A DNA stretch of 33,319 bases, taken from NCBI RefSeq assembly GCF_000160135.1, contig NZ_GG729933.1, positions 221,397-254,715 on the forward strand. The letters are read 5' to 3'. The notes under the pieces are model-generated. The model made no database searches. It was not told the DNA's origin and saw nothing but the letters and a program-made list of their open reading frames with translations. The stretch is from Oribacterium sp. oral taxon 078 str. F0262. GTDB lineage: Bacteria; Bacillota; Clostridia; Lachnospirales; Lachnospiraceae. How positions within the stretch are numbered: position 1 is the first letter of the stretch; the number at the start of each line of letters is the position of its first letter. This document shows positions 14,560 through 22,902 of this stretch, piece after piece. A program made the translations under genes and the position numbers.

Positions 14560-15648
14560 ATGGGATTGGAAACGGAGAATCCTTTGGAGTTTTTGAACCA
14601 GGCGAAGCAGGCGCTCCTGGATCAAAGAGCGCTGTCGGAATCCTTACGGGAGGCCAGGGAGCAGGAGGAGAGCGCGACGAGAGCGCTGGAGAGCGCACGT
14701 AAGGAGCTCTCGGAGAGGAAGGAAAGGACCTTAAAGAACCGGAGCGAGGAGATCAAAAAGACCTATGAGAGGCAGATCGAACAGATCGATGGCGCTTTAA
14801 AAAAGGCCCGCTCCCAGAGGGAGAGGGCAAAGAACCTAGGGGTGAAGGGGAGGATTGCGTCGGAGACGGAGCCTGTAAACGAGGAGAATCAGGAGCTTTG
14901 GCGCCGCTTCAAGGCAGTGCTTCGGAAGGATAAGGCGCCGTTTTTTTGCGGGACGAGGCTTTACTACATGCTCTTTCAGCCGAGCGGCTTTTCTGAGTTC
15001 CTGGGACTCTTTTTCGCCTTTTTGCTCTTCTTCCTGCTGATCCCGATCGGGGTCTATCTCCTCCTTCCGGAGAGAAGGACCCTCTATCTGATCGCGGTCT
15101 ACCTCCTCGATATCCTGATCTTTGGAGGGCTCTATGTCCTGATCAGCAATCAGACGAAGGGAAAGCACGGGGAAGCGATCCGGGAGGGCAGAGGATTTCT
15201 GAATGAGATGCGCAAAAACCGGAAGAGGATCCGGAACATCGCGCGAGGAATCCGCTCGGACTCCAGCGAGGAGCCCTATCATCTGGAGGACTATGATTCC
15301 GAGATCGGGAAGGCCGAGCAGGAGAGAGAGCAGACGATCCGCGAGATGCAAAGTGCGCAGGACACCTTTGAGAAGGTGACGAAGAATATCATCACGGGAG
15401 AGATGGACAGCGCCGCTCAGGCGGAGCTGGATCAGCTGTCCGACCAGCTCGCGGAGTCGAGCCGGAGGAGGTCGGAGCTGGAAAAGAGGGAAAAGCTCGG
15501 GGAACAGGAGCTCTCCCTTCGCTATGAGCAGCTTCTCGGAAAGCCGCATATGAAGGAAGAGGAGATTGACCGTCTTTATGAGCTCATTCAAAGCGGGGAG
15601 GCCTCCTCGCTGATCGATGCCGTGACGAAGCTCGAGGGGAAGGGATAA
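14560..15648 (+). CDS. Coiled-coil membrane protein of unknown function
   Basis: The 362-residue protein has an N-terminal charged coiled coil (about 12-95), two closely spaced transmembrane helices (about 146-169 and 174-196) joined by LPERRTL, and a second coiled coil (about 205-340). Such a shape suggests a membrane hairpin holding two cytoplasmic coils, possibly a scaffold or curvature protein. No enzyme motif is present, and there is no signal peptide. It converges on the SbcC-like gene, whose product is also coiled-coil rich, but nothing links the two functionally. A GGAGGAGAG ribosome binding site precedes the ATG. Confidence 0.75.
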   Translation: MGLETENPLEFLNQAKQALLDQRALSESLREAREQEESATRALESARKELSERKERTLKNRSEEIKKTYERQIEQIDGALKKARSQRERAKNLGVKGRIASETEPVNEENQELWRRFKAVLRKDKAPFFCGTRLYYMLFQPSGFSEFLGLFFAFLLFFLLIPIGVYLLLPERRTLYLIAVYLLDILIFGGLYVLISNQTKGKHGEAIREGRGFLNEMRKNRKRIRNIARGIRSDSSEEPYHLEDYDSEIGKAEQEREQTIREMQSAQDTFEKVTKNIITGEMDSAAQAELDQLSDQLAESSRRRSELEKREKLGEQELSLRYEQLLGKPHMKEEEIDRLYELIQSGEASSLIDAVTKLEGKG

Positions 15649-15706: not shown

Positions 15707-17428
15707 TTATTGCGGCTCCCCTTCCTCCGCCTCCGCTGTGAGAAGCTCGATCTTTCGGAAGGGGAGCTGCTCCGCTGTGAGGATCTCCTCCTCCCTTTTG
15801 TGACAACTGAAGAGGAGGATCTGCTCCCCTGTCATATCAGAGAGAAAATGAAGACAACTCTTCAGCCGCTCCTCGTCATAGAGCGCGAAGCTTTCGTCGA
15901 GAAAAAGCGGCAGCCGCTCCGGCGCCTCCTCCTGCATGAGGGAGGATACGGCGAGACGGAGGGCGAGATAGACCTGATCCATGGTTCCGAGCGAGAGCTC
16001 CTTCAGCTTCAGCATGCGCTCCCCGCTTCCGATGAAGAGCTCCAGGCTGTCATCGACGAAGAGGGAGCGGTAGCGTCCGCCGGTAATCTCGGAGAGTATG
16101 CGTCCCGCCTTCTCATTGAGATGCCGGCCGAAGCTCTCCGAAATCCGGAGGGAGAGCTCGGAAATGCGCTCTCTTGCCAGAGAGAGGGCATCGAGATGCC
16201 GTTCTATCCGCCCATTTTCCCGGACGGAGGAGAGAAGACGAAGCTCCCTCGTTCGAAGCTGCGAGAGACGCTCCAGCTTTCCCTCAAGTTCAGTCTGGAG
16301 CTCATGCTGCCGTAGAAGCTCCTCGTCATAGCCTTTTTCGGCGTTCTCCTTCTCCTCCAGTTCGGAGAGAACGGCATTGAGCGCCCTTCTCCCCTCCCAA
16401 AGCTCCGTAAGGATTCCTCTGAGCTCCCGGTAGCGGGAGCGAAGCCTTTCCATGCTCTCCTCCTCGATCTCCCCTCCTCCGATCCGGGTGGAGAGGACAG
16501 CGCTGAGCGCTTCTCTTCGCTCCGCTTCCTCCCTCTTTCTCCTTCGGGAAAGCGGATAGAGGAGGAGCCTTAGGACAGAGCTTTTCTTTTCCTCTTGCAG
16601 CGCGCGGTAGAGCCCCTCGGCCTTTCCCTCCTCTTTTTCGATCTCCTCCTGATCGCTCAGACCGGAGAGACGGAGGACTTCCTCCTTCCCCGAGTTTCTC
16701 CGGAGGAGCTCCTCCTTCCTTCTCTGCAGCTCTGCGAGATTTTCCCTGGCCTCCTCCCGGAGAGCGGCAAAGCGGCGGATCCGGTTTTCATAGCGTGGAT
16801 TTTCGAGTTCCCTCTCCAGATTCCGGATCTCACCGGTAAGGAGGGAGAGCTCCTTTACCGCGCCGCTGTCGAGAAGCTCCCGGAGCCTTCCCTCCTCCTC
16901 GTCCAGGAAACGGAGGGCCCGCTCCCCGGAGATGGAGGAGCTCTTGCTCTCCTGCATATTTTTCACGTAGCGCCGGAGCTCTCCGGCCATTTCCCGATCG
17001 GTCTTTGCGTGAAGCTGAGCGATGGATACGGTATTCCGGTAGCCCTTCTCCGTGAGATGGCAGAGAAGCTCCGAGAGGAAGGGCCCGGGCTTATCCAGAG
17101 GGATTCCCGATTTCTCGGAGCGGATGGAAAGCCCCTCATCCGGAGCGGAAAAATCTCTTTGGATGAGGTAGCGCTCCCCCAGATAGGAGACGAGGAGCTC
17201 GCCGCCGAAGCGCTCCGGATTTTTCCAGGGGCGGATGTGGAGTCGGAATTCCCGGGCGGGAAGGCTTCCTCCGCTCGGAAGACCGTAGAACATGCTGCGT
17301 AGAAAATGATGGAGCGTGGACTTTCCGGCCTCATTCCTTCCATAGATCAGGTTCAGGCCGTCCGAGAGCGGAAGCGTATAGTCATGGAACTTTCCAAAGC
17401 CGTGGATCCTCAATTCGATGAGCTTCAT
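15707..17428 (-). CDS. SbcC/YhaN-like ABC-type ATPase, short form
   Basis: The 573-residue protein has an SMC/Rad50-type head split by coiled coil. It has Walker A YGRNEAGKST (29-38), the signature LSLGTMDQ (478-485), Walker B LPLFLDES (506-513) with its catalytic Glu, and a switch His near 543. The insertion is predicted coiled coil from about 160 to 430 and has no CxxC zinc hook. It is far shorter than SbcC or B. subtilis YhaN (about 960). Partners of this kind drive an SbcD-type nuclease on DNA ends. Its start overlaps the SbcD-like stop by 4 bases, so the two proteins are likely made together. ATPase residues appear intact. Confidence 0.82.
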   Translation of the reverse strand: MKLIELRIHGFGKFHDYTLPLSDGLNLIYGRNEAGKSTLHHFLRSMFYGLPSGGSLPAREFRLHIRPWKNPERFGGELLVSYLGERYLIQRDFSAPDEGLSIRSEKSGIPLDKPGPFLSELLCHLTEKGYRNTVSIAQLHAKTDREMAGELRRYVKNMQESKSSSISGERALRFLDEEEGRLRELLDSGAVKELSLLTGEIRNLERELENPRYENRIRRFAALREEARENLAELQRRKEELLRRNSGKEEVLRLSGLSDQEEIEKEEGKAEGLYRALQEEKKSSVLRLLLYPLSRRRKREEAERREALSAVLSTRIGGGEIEEESMERLRSRYRELRGILTELWEGRRALNAVLSELEEKENAEKGYDEELLRQHELQTELEGKLERLSQLRTRELRLLSSVRENGRIERHLDALSLARERISELSLRISESFGRHLNEKAGRILSEITGGRYRSLFVDDSLELFIGSGERMLKLKELSLGTMDQVYLALRLAVSSLMQEEAPERLPLFLDESFALYDEERLKSCLHFLSDMTGEQILLFSCHKREEEILTAEQLPFRKIELLTAEAEEGEPQ

Positions 17429-18501
17429 CCTTCCTCCTCTTCTTCCGAAAAAAGGAGTGCGCGGATCCCAAGGAGAAGTGCCTCCTCGTCCTCCTCGCTT
17501 CTCTCCTCCTTATCCTCCATGAGAAAGCTCCGAATATAGAAGCCGATGAGATCGGAGGAATGCTCCCGGCAGAGCGCCCCGAGGTCGTAGTCCGGCTTCG
17601 ACTCATCGAGAAGCTCCGCGATGGGGAAGCGCTCCCGGAGGGAGTCGAGGGAAAAGCTCTGCTCCGGCCTTCTCTTTCCGCGGATGCGGATCCGATAGAT
17701 CCGCTCCCTTCCGTGCTCCCCCATCCGCTCGGAGAGGAGACGGAGCAGAGCTTCTTCGCGGGTTCTTTGGTTCACAGTGACCTGGAGGGGAACGTAGCGC
17801 CGCCTGGCGATCGGGAGGAAGCGAAGCTTCATGAGATCTCCCGTGCCGGGATCCAGCTCTCCGAGATAGACGCCGTGCTCCCCGCTTTCCCTCGGTGAGA
17901 GCGGCTCCGGAGAGGCGGGGAAGACGATTCTCCGCTCCCCCATCTCTCTCCGCCTTTCCGAGCCGCCGAGCGCGGCGTAGCAAAAGGGAAGAGAGCTGAG
18001 AAAGGAGCTGTCCTCCGGGAAGGGATTTTTCTTAGAGCAGCTTGCGAGTAAAATCCGGGAGCTCTCATCGCAGCAGAGGGGGAAGGCGCGGATCGCCTCC
18101 TCCCAGCTTCCCTCCGGGCAGGAGAGGGCGCAGATTTCCGTTCGGATCTCATCGAAGAAAAAGCTCCCGGAGGGCTCCAGGAGACAGCTCACATTGTCGG
18201 AAAAGGAAAAACTTAAGAGGGCGGAGCTTTTCGTAATGCGGTCGCTCTCTCCGGGCAGGAGGACGACATGGGTTTTCGGTATCGTCCGAAAGAGACTGTC
18301 CAGCTCGGAGAGCTCCCGCTTTAAGGGCTGCTGATGAAAGAGATTCCCGGCGATCAGGAGGCAGTCCGCGCCGAAGTCCCTGCACAGAGATACGATATGC
18401 CGGAAGCTCTCCCGGATCTCCTCCTCCCTCTCCTTGGCCCAGGGCATATCCGGATCCGGCGTCATACCCCAGTGCACATCGGCAGTGTGAATGAATTTCA
18501 T
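17425..18501 (-). CDS. SbcD/YhaO-like metallophosphoesterase homologue with degenerate active site
   Basis: The 358-residue protein begins MKFIHTADVHWG, the first metallophosphoesterase motif (Asp8, His10). The rest of the metal site is missing. The GD motif reads GN (52-53). GNHD reads GESD (84-87). The later His motif, normally LxxHG, reads ASC (153-155). GHxH reads GGSE (179-182). The surrounding family sequence is otherwise recognisable (AGNLFHQQPLKRELSELD, EPLSPRESGEHGVYLGEL). I infer loss of nuclease activity. It starts 2 bases after the asnS stop, with only a weak ribosome binding site, and overlaps the ATPase gene by ATGA, so it is probably a structural partner. Confidence 0.8.
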   Translation of the reverse strand: MKFIHTADVHWGMTPDPDMPWAKEREEEIRESFRHIVSLCRDFGADCLLIAGNLFHQQPLKRELSELDSLFRTIPKTHVVLLPGESDRITKSSALLSFSFSDNVSCLLEPSGSFFFDEIRTEICALSCPEGSWEEAIRAFPLCCDESSRILLASCSKKNPFPEDSSFLSSLPFCYAALGGSERRREMGERRIVFPASPEPLSPRESGEHGVYLGELDPGTGDLMKLRFLPIARRRYVPLQVTVNQRTREEALLRLLSERMGEHGRERIYRIRIRGKRRPEQSFSLDSLRERFPIAELLDESKPDYDLGALCREHSSDLIGFYIRSFLMEDKEERSEEDEEALLLGIRALLFSEEEEEG

Positions 18502-18503
18502 GG

Positions 18504-19892
18504 CTAGATCTCGCAGTTTCCTACGGTGCGCGGGAAGGGGAGAACATCGCGGATATTCTGCATTCCGGTGAGATACATGACGGCGCGTTCAAAGCCGAGG
18601 CCGAAGCCGCCGTGCCGCGTCGTGCCGAATCTCCGAAGGTCCAGATAGAAGCGGTAGGCCTCGATATCCATACCGAGCTCCTCCATCCGAGAGAGGAGCC
18701 TGTCGTAGTCCTCCTCCCTCTGGGAGCCGCCGATGATTTCCCCGATGCCGGGCACCAAACAGTCCACAGCGGCGACGGTCCTTCCGTCCGGATTCTGCTT
18801 CATGTAGAAGGCCTTGATTTCCTTCGGATAGTCCGTAACGAAGACCGGGCGCTGAAAGATCTTCTCCGTCAGATAGCGCTCGTGTTCTGTCTGGAGATCC
18901 GCCCCCCAGGAGAGCTTGTATTCGAAGTCCGCATTGTGCTTTTCGAGGATTTCGACGGCCTCCGTATAGCTGATCCGGCCGAAGTCGGAGTCGAGAATGC
19001 AGCGCATCCTTTCGAGAAGGCCCTTGTCCACAAAGCTGTTCAAAAACTCCATCTCCTCCGGGGCCTCCGTGAGGACATGGCGGATGATAAATTTCAGCAT
19101 ATCCTCCGCGGTGTCCATGATGTCGGAAAGCTCCGCGAAGGCCATCTCCGGCTCGATCATCCAAAACTCCGCCGCATGCCTCTGCGTATTCGAATTCTCC
19201 GCGCGGAAGGTCGGACCGAAGGTGTAGATATTCCGAAAGGCCTGGGCGAAGCTCTCTCCGTTCAGCTGACCGGAGACGGTGAGAGAGGTCTTCTTCCCGA
19301 AAAAGTCCGCTCCGTAGTCGACACCCTCCTCCGTCCTCGGAAGCTGATCGAGGTCGAGTGTCGTCACCTGGAACATCTCTCCGGCGCCCTCCGCGTCGGA
19401 GGCGGTGATGATCGGCGTGTGGACATAGACGAAGCCGCGCTCCTGGAAGAAGCGATGGATCGCAAAGGCGATCAGGGAGCGGATGCGAAAGACGGCCTGA
19501 AGAGTATTGGTCCTCGGGCGAAGGTGCGGGATGCTCCGGAGGTATTCCAGAGTATGGCGCTTTTTCTGGAGAGGATAGTCCGGACTGCTCGGCCCCTCGA
19601 TGGAGACGCTTTCCGCCTGCAGCTCAAAGGGCTGCTTCGCCTCCGGCGTCGCGACAAGCTTTCCCTTCACGATGACAGCCGCGCCGACGCCGAGCTTTGC
19701 GATCTCCGGGAAATTCTCCAGATCCTCGTGATAAACGACCTGAAGCGGTGTGAAAAAGCTCCCATCGGAAATCACGAGAAAGCCGAAGGACTTACTGTCC
19801 CGGTTGCTCCGGACCCATCCTCCGACCGTGATTTCTCTGTCATAGTAGGCGGCGCTGTCTCTGAAAAGCTCGCGCAAACTGCTTAAATTCAT
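18504..19892 (-). CDS. asnS: Asparagine-tRNA ligase
   Basis: The 462-residue class IIb synthetase starts at the ATG behind GGGGGAGGAAGC, giving [10 protein letters not shown]; a longer frame reaching 20066 runs through the leader. The N-terminal OB fold carries [16 protein letters not shown]. Motif 2 is [17 protein letters not shown] and motif 3 is [21 protein letters not shown]. The ending, usually FPRTPGNAEF in the family, reads [10 protein letters not shown]. It is transcribed from the promoter at 20094-20122 through a long structured leader and leads into the SbcD-like gene. Confidence 0.96.
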
Positions 19893-20087
19893 GCTTCCTC
19901 CCCCTGCGTTTCCAAAAAAGCTCCGAAAGCGGAATCCCGATATGCTTCCGCCTTCGAAGTCCTGCCGCCGTAAAGAGGCGGCAGGATATGTGATACGCCC
20001 CTTATGAACATAAGGCGGGGAAAGTCCCGCGAAAATGCGAAAAAGAGGCCGCATGGACTTTGCCATGCAAGATCAGCCTTTGATGAC
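19893..20087 (-). promoter_or_regulatory. Hairpin-rich leader of asnS
   Basis: The leader of roughly 195 nt holds at least four hairpins: 20051-20068 (GCATGG/CCATGC, followed downstream by CTCTTTTTC), 20015-20030 (GCGGG/CCCGC), 20000-20015 (CCTTAT/ATAAGG) and a perfect 10-bp stem at 19960-19986. Synthetase genes in Firmicutes often use T-box leaders, but I find neither the conserved T-box sequence nor a clear antiterminator. Control by attenuation is possible but not shown. Confidence 0.4.
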
Positions 20088-20509: not shown

Positions 20510-21784
20510 GTGATTAAGAAGGAAATGATTGCCATGCTTTTGGCTGGCGGCCAGGGCTCCCGCCTTGGTATTCTCACGAAGAATGTCGCAAAACCCGCTG
20601 TTTCCTTTGGCGGAAAGTATTCTATTATTGACTTCCCACTCAGTAATTGTATCAATTCCGGCGTGGATACCGTCGGAGTACTGACGCAGTACCAGCCTCT
20701 CCGCCTGAATGCCCATATCGGCATCGGCATCCCCTGGGATCTGGACCGGAACCGGGGAGGGGTGACGGTGCTGCAGCCCTATGAGTCCCAGGATGACACC
20801 GGATTCTATTCCGGCACGGCGAATGCGATCTTCCAAAATATCGCCTATATCGATAACTATAATCCGGACTATGTGCTGATCCTCTCGGGGGACCATATCT
20901 ACAAGATGGACTACGAGGTCATGCTGGAGTATCACAAGGCGATGAACGCGGGGCTCACCATCGCGGCGATGCCGGTGCCGATGGAGGAGGCGAGCCGTTT
21001 CGGGATCACGGTGACGGATGAGCAGAACCGCATCATCGACTTCCAGGAGAAGCCCAAGGAGCCGAGGAGCAATCTGGCGTCCATGGGGATCTATATCTTC
21101 AGCTGGAAGCTGCTCCGGGATGCGCTGCTGAAAAACCGGGATGTGCCGGGCTGCGACTTCGGGAAGCATATCATTCCCTACCTCTTCCACCAGGATGCTC
21201 CGATCTACGCCTATGAATTCAATGGCTACTGGAAGGATGTCGGCACACTGCAGTCCTACTGGGAATCCAATATGGAGCTGGTCGCGCTCATCCCGGAGTT
21301 CAATCTCTACGAGGAGTACTGGAAGATTTATACGCAGACGGACAATCCCGCCCCCCAGTACATTTCCGGAGACTCCCATGTGGAGCGCTCCATCATCTCC
21401 GAGGGCTGCGAGATCTACGGGGAGGTCTACAATTCGGTGATCGGGGCCGGTGTGACCGTGGAGGGCGGCGCGGTCATCTCGGATTCCATCATCATGGACA
21501 ATTCGGTGATCCGGGAGGGCAGCCGGGTCAATAAGGCCATTATCGCCCAGAATGTCAGCATCGGCAAAGGCTGCGTGATCGGGACCGGAGAGTATGCGGA
21601 TTCCGTCTATGACAAAAGGGTCTATTGCTCGGAACTTGCATTGATCGGAGAGAATTCCGTGATTCCGGATCAGGTCTCGATCGGGAGGAACACGGCGGTC
21701 TACGGGAAGACTGCACCGGAGGATTACCCGGACGCCGTGCTTTGGAGCGGCGGCGCGATCATCAAGGAGGACGACAGAATATGA
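20510..21784 (+). CDS. glgC: Glucose-1-phosphate adenylyltransferase
   Basis: The 424-residue enzyme makes ADP-glucose for glycogen synthesis. I take the GTG at 20510, eight or so bases after AGAGGGG, because it gives the family start (M)[19 protein letters not shown]. Motifs are the nucleotide-binding GGQGSRLG, the conserved [26 protein letters not shown] and substrate-binding [16 protein letters not shown] left-handed beta-helix domain of hexapeptide repeats ends the protein ([24 protein letters not shown]). The stop overlaps the glgD start by ATGA. Confidence 0.95.
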
Positions 21785-22902
21785 GAGCGATAGGAATTAT
21801 CCTTGCGGGCGGCAACAACAAGCGGATGAGAGAACTGTCCAACAAGCGGGCGATCTCCGCGATGCCGGTGGCGGGCACCTTCCGGGCCATCGACTTCGCG
21901 CTCTCCAACATGTCGAATTCCCATGTGCAGAAGGTGGCGGTGCTCACGCAGTACAATTCGCGTTCCCTGAACCAGCACCTCTCCTCCTCGAAGTGGTGGG
22001 ACTTCGGGCGGAAGCAGGGCGGGCTCTATGTCTATACGCCCACCATCACGGCGGAGCACGGGGACTGGTTCCGCGGCACGGCGGACGCCCTCTACCAAAA
22101 CCTTGTTTTTTTGAAATCCTCCCACGAGCCCTATGTCATCATTGCCGCGGGGGATGGTGTCTACAAGCTCGACTACAGCAGGGTCCTGGAGTACCACATC
22201 GAGAAGAAGGCGGATATCACGGTGGTGTGCACCGCGCTCAATCCCGCGGACGATGTCTCCCGCTTTGGCTGCATCAAAATGAACGATGAAAGCCGCATCG
22301 TGGAATTTGAGGAGAAGCCTGTGGCGACGGATGCGACTACGATCTCCTGCGGGGTCTATGTGATCCGGAGGCGGCAGCTGATTGAGCTTTTGGAGAAGTC
22401 CAACGATGAGGACCGCTATGATTTTGTGAAGGACATCCTGGTGCGCTACAAAAATCTGAAGCGCATCTACGGCTACCGTATGAACGACTACTGGAGCAAT
22501 ATCGCATCGCTTCCGTCCTATTACAGGACCAATATGGACTTCCTGAAAAGAGAGATCCGGGATCATTTTTTCAAGGAGGCCCCGGGAGTCTACACAAGGC
22601 TTGCGGATAATCCGCCCGCGAAGTATAATCCGGGGTGCAGTGTCCATAATGCGATCGTGGCGAGCGGGTGCATCATCAACGGTATGGTGGAGAACTCTGT
22701 CCTTTGCCGAAAGGTTTATGTCGGAAACAACTGCATTATCCGAAATTCCGTCATTTTAAATGATGTTTATATCGGAGACAACAGCGTCATTGAAAACTGT
22801 ATTGTGGAGAGCCGGGACACCATCCGGGCAAATACGACTTACATAGGGACTCCGGATGACATCAGAATAGTAATTGAAAAAAATGAAAGATATATCATGT
22901 GA
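21781..22902 (+). CDS. glgD: GlgD, glucose-1-phosphate adenylyltransferase-like regulatory subunit
   Basis: The 373-residue paralogue of GlgC starts at the overlapping ATG ([19 protein letters not shown]). Its nucleotide loop [10 protein letters not shown] departs from the GGxGxRL of active GlgC. In Firmicutes GlgD has little activity alone but activates GlgC in a heterotetramer. The core retains the family fold with [18 protein letters not shown] and a C-terminal hexapeptide-repeat helix. A spoVG gene follows 91 bases later. Confidence 0.93.

Follow-up and report, generated by a model that had tools for sequence, protein, structure and literature searches.

The window analysed here is a 33,319-nucleotide stretch of the genome of Oribacterium sp. 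oral taxon 078 str. F0262 (Lachnospiraceae; contig NZ_GG729933.1, positions 221,397 to 254,715), and it carries a string of three minus-strand genes in the order asnS, D and C. The upstream gene, asnS (18504..20066), encodes an asparaginyl-tRNA synthetase for which an internal Met giving 462 residues is the likely start; D (17425..18501) encodes a 358-residue protein assigned to the SbcD/Mre11 fold from its sequence and predicted structure; and C (15707..17428) encodes a 573-residue Rad50/SbcC-like ATPase. A first reading of this DNA, referred to below as the original prediction, proposed that D is an SbcD/YhaO-like protein with a dismantled active site, that C is its ATPase partner, and that the pair may be co-transcribed with asnS. 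The asnS stop codon lies 2 nucleotides upstream of the first codon of D, and the D and C frames share 4 nucleotides, so that asnS, D and C are probably translated in a coupled manner from a single transcript. The gene order fits the proposed co-transcription, and an asparaginyl-tRNA synthetase-like open reading frame lies in the flank of 86 of 163 D loci.

The D reading frame is open and undisrupted. D scores 21.4 bits against the Pfam Metallophos model, just under the cut-off of 21.5, and 32.5 bits over residues 1-94 against TIGR00619 (NCBIfam SbcD), for which the curated cut-off is 77.65; sequences of solved Mre11 structures match it across residues 1-97. An AlphaFold2 model built from six input sequences was of modest quality, with a predicted local distance difference test score (pLDDT) of 68.6, a predicted template modelling score of 0.62 and weak confidence over much of residues 234-304, and was therefore used for fold assignment only. 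Foldseek searches of the Protein Data Bank with this model returned 73 matches at E <= 0.001 (best E 6e-12), and all 50 that were listed are Mre11/SbcD by entry title, with template modelling scores by query of 0.43-0.49. On the model, D has the Mre11 phosphoesterase fold. The guanine plus cytosine content of its three codon positions (0.60, 0.44, 0.75) is similar to that of asnS (0.58, 0.40, 0.75), and its full-length matches in other genera reach 45% identity. Window D belongs to the asnS-linked D group of this bacterial family (f1), whose members are homologous over their full length and syntenic with C and often also with asnS.

Active-site residues of D

Mre11/SbcD proteins are mostly discussed as nucleases. 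We scored eight metal and catalytic positions, which we take to be D8, H10, D49, N84, H85, H173, H206 and H208 in the numbering of P. furiosus Mre11. At these positions the alignment gives window D as D8, H10, N53, E85, S86, S154, G180 and E182, so that only Asp8 and His10 are left of the eight, as had been claimed. Placed by alignment and by counting codons from 18501 on the minus strand, the retained Asp8 (18478..18480) and His10 (18472..18474) are followed by Asn53 for the Asp of GD, corresponding to D49 (18343..18345); Glu85-Ser86 for the Asn-His of GNHD, corresponding to N84 and H85 (18244..18249); Ser154 for the His of HGGD, corresponding to H173 (18040..18042); and Gly-Ser-Glu at residues 180-182 for the His-x-His of GHxH, corresponding to H206 and H208 (17956..17964). 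The alignment thus reproduces each predicted substitution: GD has become GN, GNHD has become GESD and GHIH has become GGSE, and the His of HGGD is gone. D49 is presumably a bridging metal ligand, and the assignment of ligands to individual metals used below is likewise our assumption. A passage of PMC4996933 describes H85 of Mre11 as indispensable for nuclease activity.

The loss is concentrated on the catalytic set. Among 129 D sequences with a complete site, 67 non-catalytic positions and the 8 catalytic ones are at least 85% conserved; window D retains 53 of the 67 and 2 of the 8 (Fisher p 0.0037), a loss of catalytic residues that exceeds chance. Retained positions include D299, Y305, G320 and I323 near the C-terminus, and 6 of the 14 lost non-catalytic positions (155, 156, 157, 160, 181 and 202) adjoin the site in the sequence. 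The open frame and the conserved surroundings agree with the view of the original prediction that D is not a random pseudogene.

Recurrence of active-site loss in the family

A match to D was found in 250 of 397 genomes of the family and in 16 of 17 genomes of the window's genus, the single genome without a match being 87% complete. The alignment comprised 164 rows, namely the window and 163 loci (149 from the family sample and 14 extra from the genus; numbered L below). The remaining 100 weaker matches among the 250 family genomes were left out, and many of these may be other paralogues. All eight residues are kept in 129 rows, seven in 5, six in 2, five in 3, four in 6, three in 11, two in 7 and one in 1. 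Rows that keep five or fewer are termed eroded (28 of 164), and those that keep all eight are termed intact. None of the 16 rows from the window's genus is complete: one keeps seven residues, two keep six and thirteen keep three or two. Eroded rows also occur beyond the genus (L037, L038, L039, L088, L047, L099, L145, L137, L152, L189, L131, L156, L184, L135 and L162). The original prediction had left it to be seen whether the substitutions are common to a clade; the erosion is shared by the genus, and losses recur elsewhere in the family. All 28 eroded copies read as a single open frame of at least 348 residues.

On FastTree phylogenies, the intact/eroded label needs 11 changes on a D tree built without the active-site columns, 12 on the C tree and 10 on the joint tree, where well-supported branches (local support of at least 95) require at least seven of them. 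These parsimony counts leave the direction of change unfixed, and some tree joins are weak; that of L152 and L189 is a long-branch join. As a control, which is biased toward close matches, a class-wide search was read for its 26 best loci outside the family, all of which keep 8 of 8 residues. Together the data suggest that active-site loss in D is recurrent, with several independent events within one bacterial family. Misalignment or sequencing error is hardly credible as a source of the pattern, because the substitutions are shared among genomes; flanking motifs are conserved and similar losses appear in independent genomes. As separate observations, an IMG/VR contig (L231:3001-4065) encodes a full-length D, 34% identical to window D, in which the motifs are present, and a scan of genome contigs gave one distant Acidobacteriota locus, which was not used.

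Selection was measured as the ratio of nonsynonymous to synonymous substitution rates (dN/dS) by the Nei-Gojobori method (NG86), separately for D residues 1-220 and the C-terminal part and only for pairs with finite dS. In the best-sampled eroded clade, eight species of the window's genus (L076-L083), dN/dS is 0.01-0.07 over residues 1-220 and 0.04-0.15 over the C-terminal part. Many of these pairs are saturated; six close pairs, with dS of D between 0.27 and 1.08, likewise give 0.01-0.07. Among intact D pairs, 11 of 14 give 0.03-0.09. D is thus under strong purifying selection in the clade L076-L083. For window D itself the nearest relatives are only 46-47% identical and synonymous sites are near saturation, so that dN/dS is not measurable for this copy.

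The ATPase partner and its membrane stretch

C exceeds the cut-offs of AAA_27 and AAA_23 and matches Rad50 structures. As the original prediction stated, it carries Walker A (GRNEAGKST), signature (SLGTMDQ), Walker B (LFLDES) and switch His (SCH) motifs. The first three are recognisable at all 40 other C loci listed, of which 33 have the switch His, six have Gln and one (L036) is changed. C was found at 160 of the 163 D loci. At four loci (L044:3814-5860, L119:309-2467, L121:979-2465 and L028:2553-4020) it is split between reading frames, which may reflect assembly error, frameshift or decay. A model of C alone by AlphaFold2 was poor (pLDDT 44.1) and was set aside.

Where Rad50-like proteins would have a zinc hook, in the middle of the coil, the C proteins of this family show a strongly hydrophobic stretch, and most of 15 aligned C rows have two such stretches. 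The hydropathy threshold was passed by 123 of 128 rows with intact D, by all 7 intermediate rows and by 24 of the 26 rows with eroded D, the five intact-D rows under the threshold being C pieces of 220-417 residues. From these sequence features, C appears to be membrane-anchored through the mid-coil stretch in most members of the family. Window C and the C of L086, from the same genus, are without the transmembrane stretch and have a short turn instead. These two are joined on the C tree (support 0.89) and, without support, on the joint tree, and on the D tree the group also takes in L044 and L087; as the three trees differ, the stretch may have been lost once or twice. Of 161 ATPase rows, 12 contain a zinc-hook CxxC, which is absent from window C. 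The original prediction was accordingly right that window C lacks a hook and is short, but hook absence is a family-wide trait and the shortness goes with the lost membrane stretch, so that neither is a sign of nuclease loss; with CxxC so rare, a tie between hook loss and nuclease loss was rejected.

In genus g103 (L135 and L162), the eroded D carries a fused extension made up of two hydrophobic stretches between coils (L135:1555-3528 and L162:1554-3527, both minus strand). A query that matched in three control genomes, including the one it came from, found no C in either g103 genome. The gene after the fusion in L135 is presumably endonuclease-IV-like.

Convergent with C, at 14560-15648 on the plus strand of the window, lies a gene for a 362-residue protein with two membrane stretches between coiled coils, which has no match over cut-off in Pfam or NCBIfam. 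Matches to it occur in 17 of 17 genus genomes; of the 16 with D, 15 have the match within about 10 kb of D and one (G404) about 170 kb away, and a match also lies beside L039, from another genus. The idea that this protein is a displaced membrane module of C is unsupported: phmmer matched it to no C row, and the gene is present in all 17 genomes, also where C still has the stretch. Further away, two adjacent plus-strand genes at 20510-22902 presumably encode a GlgC/GlgD-like glucose-1-phosphate adenylyltransferase pair. Comparison with the anti-phage system models of PADLOC gave no strong full-length match for D or C: the best match to C is LmuB (E 3e-8), most of the best 25 of 52 matches cover only its first 40-90 residues, one weak match to mad3 (E 2e-4) spans residues 2-544, and D has one match at E 0.017. 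With weak or partial matches and asnS as the neighbourhood, a role as a defence system is unsupported.

A candidate role for the pair without DNA cutting

Repeated loss of the site beside an intact ATPase suggests that the D-C pair has a job for which DNA cutting is not needed. We favour the reading, to which we give a probability of about two in three, that D is a pseudonuclease derived from an active SbcD/YhaO-type nuclease and retained in a structural or regulatory role within an ATPase clamp, an ATP-driven complex of the SbcCD/SbcE type that would hold DNA. The ancestor of D would have been an active nuclease of this type in an asnS-linked SbcD-SbcC-like pair, from which the two-metal centre and the catalytic His were then lost. 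A dimer of C would bind ATP and engage DNA, and D, seated at the C heads through its C-terminal helices, would hold or position the DNA and tune the ATPase cycle without cutting. Any cutting that is needed would be done by the canonical SbcD, which the same genome encodes separately with its motifs intact. For the window's lineage, which is also without the membrane stretch, this reading predicts a clamp that is soluble and does not cut. The original prediction is partly supported, in that the site is dismantled, the frame is open and the erosion is shared, whereas the DNA-end sensing or structural complex without nuclease activity that it put forward is a hypothesis. The g103 genomes, which retain an eroded D with no detectable ATPase partner, also count in favour of a retained role for D.

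Several observations weigh against a pseudonuclease kept for a structural role. Six of the 28 eroded rows (L037, L088, L152, L131, L135 and L162) keep D8, H10, D49 and H208, which could form a one-metal site, and all six have Ser at N84 and Tyr at H173. It is unlikely, in our judgement, that eroded D proteins have instead a rewired site, in which one metal held by D8, H10 and perhaps N53 and E182 serves another or a weaker phosphoester reaction or a structural purpose. The pattern of loss lends this idea some weight: D8 is kept in 27 of the 28 eroded rows, H208 in 18, H10 in 16, H173 in 11 and D49 in 7, compared with 4 for H85, 2 for N84 and 2 for H206. On our ligand assignment, most losses fall on the second metal and the proton-donor His, and the first metal site can persist. 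On the other side, D49, the supposed bridging ligand, is gone from 21 of 28 rows and H85, the residue described as essential, from 24, and the replacements vary by lineage, so that no common new site is visible. Window D is further eroded than the six rows.

Constraint is also weaker in places. Across 18 eroded representatives, conserved non-catalytic positions are kept at 80%, compared with 95% in intact rows, and dN/dS rises to 0.09 in the eroded pair L047-L099, 0.12 in L135-L162 and 0.18 in L044-L087 (dS 2.4, near saturation), with L131-L156 saturated. The window D branch is long (0.84). Against seven relatives, window D differs over residues 1-220 at 0.36-0.46 of nonsynonymous sites (pN) and 0.52-0.78 of synonymous sites (pS), with the lowest contrast against L086 (0.41 vs 0.52); these values fit constraint, though near saturation. 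The outcome that the original prediction named as contrary to it, intact close relatives together with relaxed selection on this copy, did not appear among the relatives; for the window copy the near saturation limits that answer. A slow decay, with the pair becoming dispensable in several lineages and D heading toward a pseudogene, would draw on the long branch and the reduced conservation, on the split C genes of four loci, including L044 from the same genus, on the two genomes in which no C was found, and on the one genus genome of 17, albeit 87% complete, that lacks a D match. We consider this a little less probable even than a rewired site, given that all 28 eroded copies are single open frames, that dN/dS in the best-sampled eroded clade is so low and that catalytic positions are lost far beyond other conserved positions.

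Canonical SbcD bears on the pseudonuclease reading in two ways. The window genome has a separate SbcD over cut-off at G000:C9, with DxH, GD, GNHD and GHIH present, and at 14 genus SbcD loci the printed motifs, which do not include the H173 position, look intact. A third SbcD-superfamily paralogue (L210-L223; frames of 372-438 residues) is found in 14 of 17 genus genomes, also with aligned motifs that look intact, and gave no match in the window's own genome. The motifs kept in both paralogues count in favour of the reading. An over-cut-off SbcD, tabulated by hand with the seven rows of six or seven residues excluded, is missing in 10 of 28 eroded-D genomes vs 14 of 129 intact-D genomes (Fisher p 0.0025); the association is not significant on independent pairs. 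That eroded-D genomes are more often without an over-cut-off SbcD speaks against a simple division of labour between D-C and SbcCD, and redundancy with SbcCD as the cause of site loss is unsupported. The same figures bear on a decoy or brake, in which eroded D would draw ATPase partners or DNA ends away from active SbcD-like nucleases. The SbcD with intact motifs in the window genome counts for it, but D is linked to an ATPase of its own and 10 of the 28 eroded-D genomes are without an over-cut-off SbcD, and we regard this as very improbable.

Known systems offer partial parallels to the pseudonuclease reading. With SbcD and Mre11, window D has in common its N-terminal sequence, its predicted fold and its pairing with a Rad50-like ATPase; it differs in its score below the TIGR00619 cut-off, in the replacement of six of eight active-site residues and in having a separate SbcD in the genome. 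In B. subtilis, the phosphoesterase YhaO pairs with the SMC-like ATPase YhaN, also named SbcE, and the window pair shows the same kind of pairing but is without the nuclease residues. Passages of two sources assign SbcE, as an SMC-like protein, a part in the repair of double-strand breaks (PMC4205851) and list it among SsbA partners (PMC7031210). The B-subunits of eukaryotic DNA polymerases, relatives of PolD DP1, are presented in part of PMC4996933 as an inactivated calcineurin-like phosphodiesterase with a proposed scaffold role; they resemble window D in combining an Mre11-like fold with inactivated nuclease motifs and differ in having a polymerase rather than a Rad50-like ATPase as partner and in carrying an OB domain. 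For the fungal Dis3L2/Ssd1 pseudonucleases, PMC8097288 describes repeated, independent loss of the nuclease signature, a parallel to the D family, with a second function retained, although these are RNA-binding proteins of the RNase II family and unrelated to D. Among the matches listed from the openly licensed PMC literature, none described bacterial homologues of SbcD or Mre11 that are nuclease-dead.

More tentatively, and with the odds in our judgement slightly against it, the asnS-linked pair, which appears membrane-anchored in most of the family, may have a conserved main function that is independent of nuclease activity. The several independent site losses would follow from such a function; the window's lineage would have lost both site and anchor, and g103 would have shed the ATPase and fused its eroded D to a coil-membrane module. 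If D is indeed a retained pseudonuclease, these bacteria would provide a natural experiment in which cutting is set apart from the structural role of an Mre11-type subunit, and the family, with its intact, possible one-metal, eroded and ATPase-less members, would serve as a panel for probing the function of the pair.

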